NCBI GenBank assembly: GCA_029238665.1
Contig: JAQWFQ010000012.1
Location: forward strand, 124,001 to 188,000
Length of the DNA stretch: 64,000 nt
Direction: 5' to 3'
DNA from: Crocinitomicaceae bacterium
Lineage (GTDB): Bacteria; Bacteroidota; Bacteroidia; Flavobacteriales_D; Crocinitomicaceae
Position 1 is the stretch's first letter. Each line of letters begins with the position of its first letter. Below the pieces are notes generated by a model. It saw only the letters and a list, made by a program, of their open reading frames with translations, was not told the origin of the DNA and did not search any database. This document shows, one piece after another, positions 46,368 through 50,430 of this stretch. A program made the position numbers and the translations under genes.

Positions 46368-46931
46368 ATGAAGACTATTTTATTATCAATTTTATTACTT
46401 ACATCAACATCAATTTTTGCTCAAAGCATGACCCTTTCTCACAGTGGAATAACTCCGAATAGTGAGCTGACGGTAACGGTTGGACAATCTATCGAGTTTA
46501 TTCATGGGGGAGGGGGACAACACCCTATGACAGAGGGCTGGCAATCTGGCGAGTATTCAACACCAATCCCATTTGCTACACAGACTGTGAGTTTTTCAAA
46601 CCCTTCTGTAACTTTTACCCTTGACACACCGGGAGTTTATTACTTTCACTGTGGGACAAATCCTGCAAACGATGATCTTTGGGGAAAAATAACGGTGTTA
46701 GATAGTGGAGCAGGTGTACTCGAAAATCAAATGACAAGAGTTGTTATTTCTCCAAATCCAGTTGTTGATGTGCTTTCTCTATCTAACATAGAGGAAGAGG
46801 TTTTTATATACGATACTAAAGGTGAAATGATGATGAAAACGTCATCTAAAACAGTAGATGTAAGTCAGCTTCCTTCTGGCGTGTATATAGTTAAATCAAA
46901 AAGCTTAAGGAGTAAATTTATCAAACAGTAA
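46368..46931 (+). CDS. cupredoxin-like protein with T9SS sorting domain
   Basis: A 187-residue protein: signal peptide MKTILLSILLLTSTSIFAQ, a plastocyanin-like domain (20-112), and a type A T9SS sorting domain (VVISPNPVVDVLSL to SKFIKQ). Type 1 copper ligands are partly present: H52 (QHPMTEG) and C95 (YYFHCGTNP). The usual second His a few residues after the Cys (HCGxHP in related proteins) is Asn98 here, and no axial Met follows. It may bind copper differently or have lost the site. It is exported to the cell surface by T9SS and sits 3 nt ahead of another T9SS protein. Confidence 0.82.
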   Translation: MKTILLSILLLTSTSIFAQSMTLSHSGITPNSELTVTVGQSIEFIHGGGGQHPMTEGWQSGEYSTPIPFATQTVSFSNPSVTFTLDTPGVYYFHCGTNPANDDLWGKITVLDSGAGVLENQMTRVVISPNPVVDVLSLSNIEEEVFIYDTKGEMMMKTSSKTVDVSQLPSGVYIVKSKSLRSKFIKQ

Positions 46932-46934
46932 ATC

Positions 46935-47630
46935 ATGAAAAATATAATCACACTTGTTTTGACCATGTCATTATTTACAATGACAGGTTTTGCGCAGCTA
47001 TCATTTAGTTGGGACCCCAATGATACGATAGTTCAAAATGTTGATTCAGACATGTATACTGAACTGGATATTCACCAAATTAATTTAACGGGTGACACCC
47101 TAGAGTTGGGGATAGAGGTTGTATACAATGATATTCCGGCAACCTGGGACGGTATGATTTGCATACAGGGGTTGTGTTTAGGTGCAATTCAACCAGTGGG
47201 GTTTACAGCTCAGATGTCGCCAATTTATGACACTATGTATGGATACACCAAACTTACTGTATTTCCACAAGGAGGCTTAGAAAGTTGTAAATTAAGAATC
47301 AGAGTATATGATGTGAATAGCCCGTCGGAGAGTGACACCTGTACTTGGATCCTGAATTCAGTATCAACAAATGATATCAATGAAATTAGCAGTGGTGAAC
47401 TAACTGTTTTCCCTAATCCAGCTTCTGGCCTGTTTAAAATCACATCTAAAACCCCATTTAATGAGGTTTGGATAACTGACCTTCAAGGAAGAAAAGTGAA
47501 GCATATAGCACTAGATTCAACATCTGAAATAGCAATTCCCACAGGTAACTTGTTATCGGGCGAATATTTTGTTGAGGTAATTTCTGATTCGGAACTTATC
47601 GAACGAATAAAATTAATGAAGTATGAGTAA
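46935..47630 (+). CDS. secreted protein with T9SS sorting domain, unknown
   Basis: A 231-residue protein with a signal peptide (MKNIITLVLTMSLFTMTGFAQ), a beta-rich domain of about 120 residues with no recognised family (SFSWDPNDTIVQNVDSDMY onwards, three Cys including ICIQGLCLG), and a type A T9SS domain (LTVFPNPASGLFKIT to IERIKLMKYE). It is embedded in the cupredoxin/multicopper oxidase cluster, 3 nt after the cupredoxin gene, and overlaps the next gene by 8 nt. It may be a surface partner of those proteins. Confidence 0.8.
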   Translation: MKNIITLVLTMSLFTMTGFAQLSFSWDPNDTIVQNVDSDMYTELDIHQINLTGDTLELGIEVVYNDIPATWDGMICIQGLCLGAIQPVGFTAQMSPIYDTMYGYTKLTVFPQGGLESCKLRIRVYDVNSPSESDTCTWILNSVSTNDINEISSGELTVFPNPASGLFKITSKTPFNEVWITDLQGRKVKHIALDSTSEIAIPTGNLLSGEYFVEVISDSELIERIKLMKYE

Positions 47631-48483
47631 AATTATTTTAGCTAGTATTCTCACATTCATTGTTGGATTTAATGGCATGTCAGGGACTGTGACCAAATCC
47701 TTGTATATTGTTTCGGGCTCGTTGTTATCGGTAGATAATAATTTAAGCCCTTACATTACGTTTAACGACAATCCTGTTTTCACACAAGAGAACCCTATTA
47801 TAAATTTATATATTGGTGACACACTTGATTTATGGGTTTATAATACTGATTTAGTAGATCACGGGTTTGTGATTAACGACGTAAATGTTTCCATAAATAT
47901 TGCTCCGGGAGATTCCGTTTTCGTTCAACAAGAATTTGCGTCTTCGGGAGTTTTTATATATCATGATTCTCAAGAGTATCCAAAATACACTTATTTAGGT
48001 TTGGCGGGATTAATAGTGGTAAAGGACCATAGTCAGCCATGTTTTTATTGGAATTTAAAAGAACACAATGCTGATTGGAATAATCAATTGTTTAATGGGG
48101 GAACTGTAAATTGGAGTGATTATGACCCAAAGTACTTTACGATAAATGCACGAAGTAATCCAAATATAAATATGGATACATTAGCGCGAATTACAGGCTC
48201 GATTGGAGATACACTTCACCTTCAAATAGCGAACACCGGACAAGGAGTACACTCAATTCATTTTCATGGCTATCATGGTGTTATAAAATATAGCAGTAAA
48301 AACCCGAGTCATATTGGAAGAGAAAAAGATACTTTTCCGATTTACCCAATGGAAACAATGACTATTCAGATTATACCAGATAAGTCAGGAGAATATCCTG
48401 TTCATGACCACAATTTAGCAGCAGTAACAGGGAATAATATTTATCCAAATGGAATGTTTTCAACAATACTTATTACACCATGA
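47623..48483 (+). CDS. multicopper oxidase-like protein A: two cupredoxin domains, no sorting domain
   Basis: A 286-residue protein with a Sec signal (about 1-21). Two cupredoxin domains lie at about 25-135 and 172-286, joined by a linker with DYDPKYFTINARS. Domain 1 lacks copper motifs (isolated H80 and H114, no Cys). Domain 2 has HSIHFHG (H210, H213, H215) and HDHNLAAVTGNNIYPNGM (H261, H263), like the first domain of small laccases, but no type 1 Cys. It therefore has about half of a trinuclear copper site. The stop overlaps the start of protein B in ATGA. No T9SS domain is present, unlike its partner. Confidence 0.82.
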   Translation: MSKIILASILTFIVGFNGMSGTVTKSLYIVSGSLLSVDNNLSPYITFNDNPVFTQENPIINLYIGDTLDLWVYNTDLVDHGFVINDVNVSINIAPGDSVFVQQEFASSGVFIYHDSQEYPKYTYLGLAGLIVVKDHSQPCFYWNLKEHNADWNNQLFNGGTVNWSDYDPKYFTINARSNPNINMDTLARITGSIGDTLHLQIANTGQGVHSIHFHGYHGVIKYSSKNPSHIGREKDTFPIYPMETMTIQIIPDKSGEYPVHDHNLAAVTGNNIYPNGMFSTILITP

Positions 48484-49664
48484 GAAACAATTCAATCTTA
48501 ACTCTAGTACTTTCTATCATTTTATCATTTTCAATCGAGGCCCAAATAGATGTAGTTCAGAACATTTTTTCTAAGATGGATATTGCTCCACAACATACTT
48601 TATGGGATGGCAGTCAGACAATGTTGATGGGATACACTAAACTTATGGGAGCAGCCATAGACATACCTGGTCCAACTTTAAACTATATAGAGGGTGATTC
48701 AATTGAATTGAAGTTGAGGAATATGTCGCAGGGAGCATCACACACTATTCATTTACATGGTTTGGATGTGGATCAACAAAATGATGGCGTTCCTCACCTT
48801 TCTTTTGAAGTTGGGCATAATGAAACCAAGTCTTATTTTTTCAAGGCGCCCCACCCAGGAACATATTTATACCATTGTCATGTTACGTCAACGTTACATG
48901 TTCAAGCTGGAATGTACGGGTTACTGATTGTTAGACCTTCTTCGAGTAACCTCACTTGGAATGGAGGGCATCATTTTCATCAGGAAAAAGCATGGATGAC
49001 ATCAGAGTTGGATACTATTTGGCATTCAGACTCCATAATAAATCAACCGCATGATACTACTACGAATCAGGTCTTACTCCCTGATTACAATCCCCAGTAT
49101 TTCTTTATAAATGGCCGATCAGAAAATCAGTTGTCTAGTCAAACAATCTCTGCAAGTGTTGATGAAAACATCCTGCTTCGACTAGCAAATATTGGTTTTT
49201 ATGGGAATAAATATGTGTTCCCGTATCAGCTTGGCGCTAAGGTCATTTCTTCAGATGGAAGGCCCTTTCCTATAGAGGAAATAACGGATACTCTTGTGGT
49301 TTTACCAGGCGAGCGTTATCAAGTTTTATTTGAGCCTGAAATTGAGTTTTCAGATTACATCTCAGTGTCTTATTTTGATTTAAATACAATGCAGGATTTA
49401 AACACACAAAATGTTTCAATTGATGTGCAGGGATTTCTTTCCCTACCAGAATTAAATATTTCTGGCTTTGAGGCGTACCCGAACCCTGTGACAAACGTTT
49501 TACACCTGAAAAATGTGCAAAAAGAGCATGTTCAGATTTTAGATGCATCGGGAAAACACATTTGTTTCATTAAAAACACAGGGTCAGTGGATGTAAGTAG
49601 GCTTCAAAAAGGAGTTTACTTTTTAAAAGGAAAAAAGAAGACTGTCAAATTTATTAAACAATAA
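48480..49664 (+). CDS. multicopper oxidase-like protein B with T9SS sorting domain
   Basis: A 394-residue protein: Sec signal (MRNNSILTLVLSIILSFSIEAQ), cupredoxin domain 1 (about 30-153), domain 2 (about 200-320, linker DYNPQYFFINGRS), and a type A T9SS domain (FEAYPNPVTNVLHL to KFIKQ). Domain 1 has HTIHLHG (H88, H91, H93) and YHCHVTSTLHVQAGM (H132, C133, H134, H140, M145). These are type 1 plus half the type 2/3 ligands, as in the last domain of laccases. The HCH to His spacing is two residues longer than usual. Domain 2 has no copper motif. It overlaps protein A by 4 nt. Confidence 0.88.
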   Translation: MRNNSILTLVLSIILSFSIEAQIDVVQNIFSKMDIAPQHTLWDGSQTMLMGYTKLMGAAIDIPGPTLNYIEGDSIELKLRNMSQGASHTIHLHGLDVDQQNDGVPHLSFEVGHNETKSYFFKAPHPGTYLYHCHVTSTLHVQAGMYGLLIVRPSSSNLTWNGGHHFHQEKAWMTSELDTIWHSDSIINQPHDTTTNQVLLPDYNPQYFFINGRSENQLSSQTISASVDENILLRLANIGFYGNKYVFPYQLGAKVISSDGRPFPIEEITDTLVVLPGERYQVLFEPEIEFSDYISVSYFDLNTMQDLNTQNVSIDVQGFLSLPELNISGFEAYPNPVTNVLHLKNVQKEHVQILDASGKHICFIKNTGSVDVSRLQKGVYFLKGKKKTVKFIKQ

Positions 49665-49674
49665 AATATTCAAT

Positions 49675-50430
49675 ATGATTATTCAATCGAAAATACGAAT
49701 TGCATTTATAGCGTTCTTTGTCTTGAGCTCATGTTCTAACTTAGACCCAACCGATACAATTAAAGATGACACATCCTTCAATGTAATGTGGAAAGGAGCA
49801 TTAAAAAAAATGATGCATGAAGGGGATCTTTCGGCAAAGATAGATTTGTCAGATCTGGAAAACACGGAACACTTATACGCGCTTGGAGCAATAGAAAATT
49901 TAAAAGGTGAAGTTCAAATATTCGACAGTAAACCGTTGAACACACTGGTTGCGGGTGATGATTTAATGTTTGACAAGTCATTCGATAAGAAGGCAGCCCT
50001 GTTGGTTTACGCATCGGTAAACAAATGGAAGACAATTGCTATTCCTGAAAGCGTAAAAAGCTATGAGCAATTAGAAGAATACGTTAAGGTTTCGGCTAAA
50101 GAGAACCAGGTCAATACAAATGAACCCTTTCCTTTTTTAATAGAAGGAACCCCTAAGTCGTTTGACTGGCATGTCATTAATTGGAAGGACGGTGACAATG
50201 CACATTCCCATGAAAAACACATAAGTTCAGGACTTCATGGAACAGTCGAGGGTGTTCCGGTTCAAATGTTAGGGTTTTATTCAAACTCGCACCACGCTAT
50301 TTTTACGCACCACACCACGAACATGCATATCCATGTGAAAACGGATAGTAGTAAAATAGCCGGACATGTTGACGGATTAACTTTGGGGGATAACATGATT
50401 TTAAAGTTACCTCTTATTGAATCCCTATAG
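49675..50430 (+). CDS. acetolactate decarboxylase-like lipoprotein
   Basis: A 251-residue lipoprotein (C20 in VLSSC-SNLD). The mature part resembles alpha-acetolactate decarboxylase: LYALGAIENLKGEVQIFDSKP near 67-87 matches the LDGE strand region, and H218-x-H220…H231 (NMHIHVKTDSSKIAGHV) repeats the spacing of the three zinc ligands in Bacillus ALDC (H194, H196, H207, from memory). A His cluster (HSHEKHISSGLHG, NSHHAIFTHH) precedes it. A secreted lipid-anchored form in a copper cluster suggests either extracytoplasmic ALDC activity or reuse as a metal-binding protein. It lies 10 nt after protein B and ends the cluster. Confidence 0.65.
   Translation: MIIQSKIRIAFIAFFVLSSCSNLDPTDTIKDDTSFNVMWKGALKKMMHEGDLSAKIDLSDLENTEHLYALGAIENLKGEVQIFDSKPLNTLVAGDDLMFDKSFDKKAALLVYASVNKWKTIAIPESVKSYEQLEEYVKVSAKENQVNTNEPFPFLIEGTPKSFDWHVINWKDGDNAHSHEKHISSGLHGTVEGVPVQMLGFYSNSHHAIFTHHTTNMHIHVKTDSSKIAGHVDGLTLGDNMILKLPLIESL

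Follow-up and report, generated by a model that had tools for sequence, protein, structure and literature searches.

A candidate multicopper oxidase of Bacteroidota whose trinuclear copper site may be shared by the products of two overlapping genes

The A and B genes, their copper motifs and their neighbours

The window, a 64,000-nucleotide stretch of DNA from a Crocinitomicaceae bacterium, carries two adjacent genes on its forward strand that encode cupredoxin proteins, designated here A and B. Protein A (286 aa, 47623..48483) consists of a signal peptide, a first cupredoxin domain without a copper site and a second with half of a predicted trinuclear site, and it has no T9SS tail. Protein B (394 aa, 48480..49664) consists of a signal peptide, a first cupredoxin domain with a predicted type 1 site and the other trinuclear half, a second without a copper site, and a C-terminal T9SS type A sorting domain (Por_Secre_tail, 49476..49655, identified by Pfam and NCBIfam). 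The stop codon of A and the start codon of B share the sequence ATGA (48480..48483), a four-base overlap that points to translational coupling. An initial annotation, made from sequence alone, had described this arrangement, and its coordinates, overlap and residue numbers were all correct. Its claim that each protein has its own signal peptide is plausible by eye at each N-terminus, and its claim of two cupredoxin domains per protein held, with Pfam, an AlphaFold2 model and Foldseek matches to two-domain oxidases in agreement. The similar inter-domain linker that it reported is also present (DYDPKYFTINARS in A, DYNPQYFFINGRS in B). Its description did not mention the T9SS tail of B. Pfam places Cu-oxidase_2 at residues 179-265 of A, and Cu-oxidase_3 and Cu-oxidase, plus the sorting tail, on B. 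Cu-oxidase_2 was found in 26/26 A homologues, and the sorting tail in 36/37 B homologues and 0/26 A homologues.

The predicted copper ligands lie in four motifs. Domain 2 of A contains HSIHFHG (H210, H213 and H215; 48250..48270) and HDH (H261 and H263; 48403..48411), of which H213, H215, H261 and H263 are predicted trinuclear ligands. Domain 1 of B contains HTIHLHG (48741..48761), which would supply a type 1 ligand (H88) and two trinuclear ligands (H91 and H93), and HCHVTSTLHVQAGM (48873..48914), which would supply two more trinuclear ligands (H132 and H134) and the remaining type 1 ligands (C133, H140 and M145). Taken together, A and B hold the complete motif set of HxHG, HxH, HxxHxHG and HCHx(n)HxxxxM. 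The type 1 ligands of domain 1 (H, C, H, M) are present in B (82/82) and not in A, and neither A nor B carries all eight trinuclear ligands on one polypeptide in any of 83 pairs.

The best solved relatives of both proteins are 3g5w and 2zwn, type C two-domain multicopper oxidases (for B against 3g5w, a PDB search gave E 8.7e-18), and A and B are homologous to this type over both domains. Domain 2 of A aligns to domain 2 of 3g5w and 2zwn (HAIHTHG...HDH), and domain 1 of B aligns to their domain 1 (HTIHWHG...HCHVNVNEHVTMRGM). Another genome, G020, encodes an unsplit type C enzyme with all twelve ligands on one chain. HSIHFHG of A aligns with HNLHLHG of this unsplit enzyme and with HAIHTHG of 3g5w, and HDH of A aligns with HDH in domain 2 of 3g5w and 2zwn. 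H140 of B lies seven residues past C133 where the usual spacing is five, and the unsplit enzyme has the same spacing (HCHWGTLMHMQAGM). One element of the initial annotation needs refining: its histidine set included H210 of A, which, as inferred from sequence alone, is not a trinuclear ligand and occupies the place of a type 1 His. The eight trinuclear histidines would be 213, 215, 261 and 263 of A and 91, 93, 132 and 134 of B.

Directly upstream of A, as in 57 of the 74 loci having enough upstream sequence, lies a gene for protein C (231 aa, 46935..47630, forward strand), which has a signal peptide, a beta-rich domain of ~120 aa recognised by eye, and a T9SS tail that is also present in 31/31 of its homologues. 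An alignment of these homologues shows an invariant C76 and C81 (CxxxxC) and a near-invariant W71 and M94, and Pfam and PDB searches returned no family for protein C besides the sorting tail. It could conceivably be a third subunit or a copper donor. Ahead of C lies a gene for a cupredoxin-like protein that has one domain and a T9SS tail (46368..46931, forward strand; Pfam and NCBIfam), and such a gene precedes C-A-B in another locus (L080) too. It is probably part of the same transcription unit, and it may be an electron donor or copper carrier, although this remains only a possibility. Farther upstream, an HMA domain protein (PF00403; 45526..45819, forward strand) places the locus in a copper-homeostasis context, and several loci likewise have HMA genes ahead of C-A-B. 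A CCP_MauG di-haem peroxidase gene occurs near A-B in 21 loci, 19 of which also have MbnP. Loci with both, on either strand, include L083, L094, L109, L125 and L139, which suggests a link of MbnP/MbnH to a putative multicopper oxidase. The neighbours, on which alone this inference rests, point to the handling of copper or another redox metal at the cell surface, for instance through Cu(I) oxidation. On the other side of B, a lipoprotein-like gene (49675-50430) weakly resembles alpha-acetolactate decarboxylase (5e-5, under the cut-off) and follows B in L080 and L082 too.

Conservation, pairing and B homologues without A

Ligand conservation was assessed across 83 A/B pairs from Bacteroidota (one labelled Ignavibacteriae). 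H213, H215, H261 and H263 of A are each present in 83/83, and the eight predicted ligands of B are present either in 83/83 (H88, H91 and H93, in HTIHLHG) or in 82/82 (H132, C133, H134, H140 and M145). All motif residues being invariant, their conservation is far beyond chance. Eighty of the loci came from a database search whose pattern included the A histidines, so the conservation of A is partly selected there, and the B counts are not; relatives found by ordinary homology search, without a pattern, show the same conservation of A. H218 of A is also invariant although it lies outside the copper sites, so invariance alone is no proof of a ligand role.

The confinement of copper motifs to domain 2 of A and domain 1 of B, as originally described, holds across the 83 pairs: the copper site is never restored in domain 1 of A or domain 2 of B. 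At the positions of the unsplit enzyme's domain-1 site the residues of A are mixed, with His mostly kept only at the first, H80-like, position (75/83), and at the positions of its domain-2 site the residues of B are mainly N, I, P, F and L/M.

The two genes are also tightly paired. A is followed by an adjacent B on the same strand in 80/80 database loci, drawn from Flavobacteriales, Cytophagales, Saprospirales, Sphingobacteriaceae and one Ignavibacteriae record. Among 60 relatives searched, 24 genomes hold an intact pair, always with A ahead of B, each intact A lying beside a B and each strong B accompanied by A. In a 25th relative, G049, both genes are pseudogenes, a joint loss. What remains there (L059:6500-8400, on G049:C3) has stops and frameshifts in A and B, with SPFHFHG and HNH left over from the A motif. 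The division into two genes is kept in more than 100 pairs of other bacteria, and the window's own genome has three paralogous pairs with both genes in each. Its two further C-A-B operons lie at G000:C4:4689-6673 (L051) and G000:C31:2944-4955 (L052), the latter adjoining genes that by eye resemble those for a CusB-type efflux protein and a copper ATPase. Of 78 homologous loci, 41 have the four-base overlap and 73 have a spacing between -4 and +7 bases; in the database loci B usually overlaps A by one to four bases.

The initial annotation had named genomes with A and B fused in one ORF as a check, and no true fusion was found among the loci searched. The sole candidate, a 692-aa ORF (L124:4932-7007), was rejected: a run of eight G near the end of A is followed by out-of-frame A sequence, a homopolymer frameshift that is probably a sequencing error.

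It had also held that a wide occurrence of B homologues without A, active alone, would refute a shared site. In a wider phylum sample, full-length B homologues without A occur in only four genomes of one genus (L160:5213-6193, L161:5576-6556, L162:5231-6172 and L163:2978-3919). HTIHLHG is replaced there by VSLYC or VSLFC and HCH by YSP, so that every copper ligand is gone, those of the type 1 site included. A tyrosinase-domain gene lies 3' of the B homologue in L160, with look-alikes in the other three loci. All four homologues branch with B in an unrooted tree. Within this sample, then, no B that lacks an accompanying A retains copper ligands, and B is not widespread without A. A copper-free B might serve another copper enzyme, though we offer this only tentatively. 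With no outgroup for A, B and the unsplit enzymes, the tree does not resolve whether A and B arose by a single duplication. A plasmid search for extra unsplit enzymes of type C brought up other oxidases for the most part, and only the Deinococcus one was used.

A linked model and covariation between the two proteins

The two proteins were modelled as one linked chain by reading the intergenic stop of L127, whose A is 44% identical to that of the window, as Gln. The B signal peptide serves as the linker in this construct, the stop codon that is read through is counted as part of the linker, and the rows of the linked alignment were limited to stop read-through loci. AlphaFold2 gave a confident model (pLDDT 88.9, pTM 0.90). 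In Foldseek comparisons of the whole model, TM-scores by query length were 0.65 for ceruloplasmin, 0.61 for the factor VIII heavy chain (A1-A2; 0.58 by target) and 0.69 for MnxG, and single two-domain chains reached only 0.40 against the whole model. Because scores above ~0.5 require A and B to superpose together, the model predicts that they pack one after the other like the two-domain units of ceruloplasmin and factor VIII, with domain 2 of A against domain 1 of B. In ceruloplasmin, contacts between the second domain of one unit and the first domain of the next are pseudo-equivalent to the contact of domain 6 with domain 1 that holds the trinuclear centre. Such packing would therefore place domain 2 of A and domain 1 of B at a trinuclear-type interface. 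A predicted complex structure was among the checks initially suggested, and to this extent it supports the proposal; it remains a model prediction, and no His-His distances were obtained from it. An isolated construct of domain 2 of A and domain 1 of B was poorly folded (pTM 0.45).

Covariation was computed from 84 pairs (~67 effective sequences). Of the 30 highest-ranking column pairs between the proteins, 18 fall in domain 2 of A with domain 1 of B, 2.9-fold over expectation. The same domain combination takes 16/30 within the largest clade alone, and 2-10 of 30 once partners have been shuffled inside two coarse groups. Covarying columns beside the ligands include 257, 259, 274 and 281 of A with 99, 104, 107, 137 and 143 of B. 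The signal is confounded by relatedness, which was not fully controlled. The mirror-tree correlation of A with B is 0.69 overall; on the 58 loci that also have C it is 0.63, against 0.43 for A-C and 0.46 for B-C, which is suggestive only.

The proposed enzyme, its rivals and its relatives

We consider it likely, with a probability of about 0.82, that A and B are two subunits of one multicopper oxidase. This reading is based on homology, ligand conservation, reciprocal loss, obligate pairing, the confident linked model and inter-domain covariation, all of which are shown; copper occupancy, the proximity of the two His sets, stoichiometry and oxidase activity are inferred. The initial annotation had proposed an A/B heteromer sharing one site, and the pairing, the ligands, the linked model and the covariation support it.

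In the proposed scheme, the ancestor of A and B would have been a type C two-domain multicopper oxidase, a kind that normally assembles as a homotrimer in which each interface pairs domain 1 of a chain with domain 2 of its neighbour around a trinuclear centre, and the paralogues would have lost opposite halves of the site, A retaining the domain-2 half and B the domain-1 half with the type 1 copper. Since each chain has one half only, a complete site would need contact between domain 1 of B and domain 2 of A. The type 1 copper of B (H88, C133, H140 and M145) would receive electrons from a reductant and pass them, by way of HCH, on to a trinuclear centre formed by H91, H93, H132 and H134 of B and H213, H215, H261 and H263 of A, where O2 would be reduced to water. 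The axial Met points to a modest potential of the type 1 copper. A three-fold A/B ring has room for one complete site, as in ceruloplasmin, so we infer an AB, A2B or AB2 assembly that should stand closer to ceruloplasmin than to a homotrimer with three sites; by the same inference, homotrimers of A alone or B alone would lack half of every site. The T9SS tail of B is the basis for inferring a cell-surface location of the enzyme, and given that A has no such tail, either A is exported together with B or the complex remains in the periplasm. A bolder form of this reading, which we also find probable, is an obligate heteromer with one trinuclear centre between two gene products that have reciprocally lost half-sites, arranged in a ceruloplasmin-like ring that may include C, with A exported to the surface by means of B's tail.

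Of the alternatives, the one that survives best, though unlikely, is that A and B are separate co-operonic copper proteins without a trinuclear centre, B being a blue-copper carrier or scavenger and A a His-rich copper binder. In its favour, a complete type 1 site is present on B alone, the neighbours (MbnP, HMA proteins and a cupredoxin) handle copper, and the sorting tail is on B and not A, so that their compartments could differ. Against it, there are exactly eight trinuclear histidines, four on each protein, invariant in 83 pairs; the HCH motif would be superfluous in a plain blue-copper protein; B homologues without A are also without any copper ligand, type 1 included; and the linked model and inter-domain covariation tie the two proteins together.

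A mononuclear type 2 copper at the A/B interface, as in copper nitrite reductase (CuNIR), is very unlikely. The top NCBIfam score of B is to Cu_nitrite_red (65.5 bits), and the CuNIR site, too, sits where domain 1 of a chain meets domain 2 of the following one. However, the cut-off of that family (TIGR02376) is 296.3 bits, so B falls far below it and membership is not met. B has both HTIHLHG and HCH, whereas fewer histidines make up the type 2 site of CuNIR; the HxHG and HxH of A are missing from CuNIR; all eight histidines are invariant; and the best PDB matches are two-domain oxidases rather than CuNIR. That an ordinary single-chain oxidase gene has been broken by a frameshift or sequencing error, as an overlap of just four bases might suggest, is all but excluded by the recurrence of the arrangement in more than 100 pairs, three times in the window's genome, and by the only apparent fusion, L124, being itself the frameshift.

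The two-subunit reading can be set against several known systems. Two-domain multicopper oxidases form homotrimers whose active sites lie where identical chains meet (PMC3192119), and in type C the type 1 copper is in the N-terminal domain (PMC13151041). A and B resemble type C enzymes, such as the Nitrosomonas europaea blue copper oxidase (3g5w) and a metagenomic laccase (2zwn), in having two cupredoxin domains per chain, with the type 1 copper and the trinuclear HxxHxHG and HCH in domain 1 and HxHG and HxH in domain 2. Type C enzymes are the closest two-domain fold matches, and their site lies at an inter-subunit interface, as is proposed for A/B. Unlike A/B, where the two sides of the interface would come from different genes, known type C members have both halves on each chain. 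Ceruloplasmin, coagulation factors V/VIII and MnxG form a ring of two-domain cupredoxin units, and the A+B model can be superposed on consecutive units of that ring. Only one trinuclear centre is present in ceruloplasmin; in contrast to its six domains on one chain, the A/B proteins are bacterial, come from separate genes and provide four domains per AB. Heterodimeric fungal laccases are likewise multicopper oxidases acting as heterodimers, and in Pleurotus POXA3 a sensu stricto laccase forms the large subunit, with a small protein as its partner (PMC3129051). The copper site of these laccases is not known to be split between chains. The Mnx complex (MnxE/F/G) is also a multi-subunit bacterial multicopper oxidase, and MnxG was a Foldseek match, but MnxG bears the whole trinuclear site, and MnxE/F are not known to be multicopper oxidase halves.

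A search of the literature, limited to open-access full text, returned no case of a trinuclear site divided between two gene products, and a hetero-oligomeric multicopper oxidase of this kind appears not to have been described. Should the two-subunit reading be correct, the pair would be a natural example of active-site halves lost reciprocally after duplication, and an intermediate between three-site homotrimeric two-domain enzymes and one-site ceruloplasmin, a step usually discussed only via single-chain fusions. The halves of its trinuclear centre would also be separately mutable. A/B pairs would escape any search that requires the four motifs to occur together in a single protein, and they offer a test of whether the T9SS exports a partner without a sorting tail. 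In one locus, ~2.5 kb downstream of an A-B pair, there is a two-domain oxidase-like ORF (L134:9503-10771) that scores 67 bits with the A profile and 124 with the B profile, and it could be an unsplit enzyme beside a split pair.
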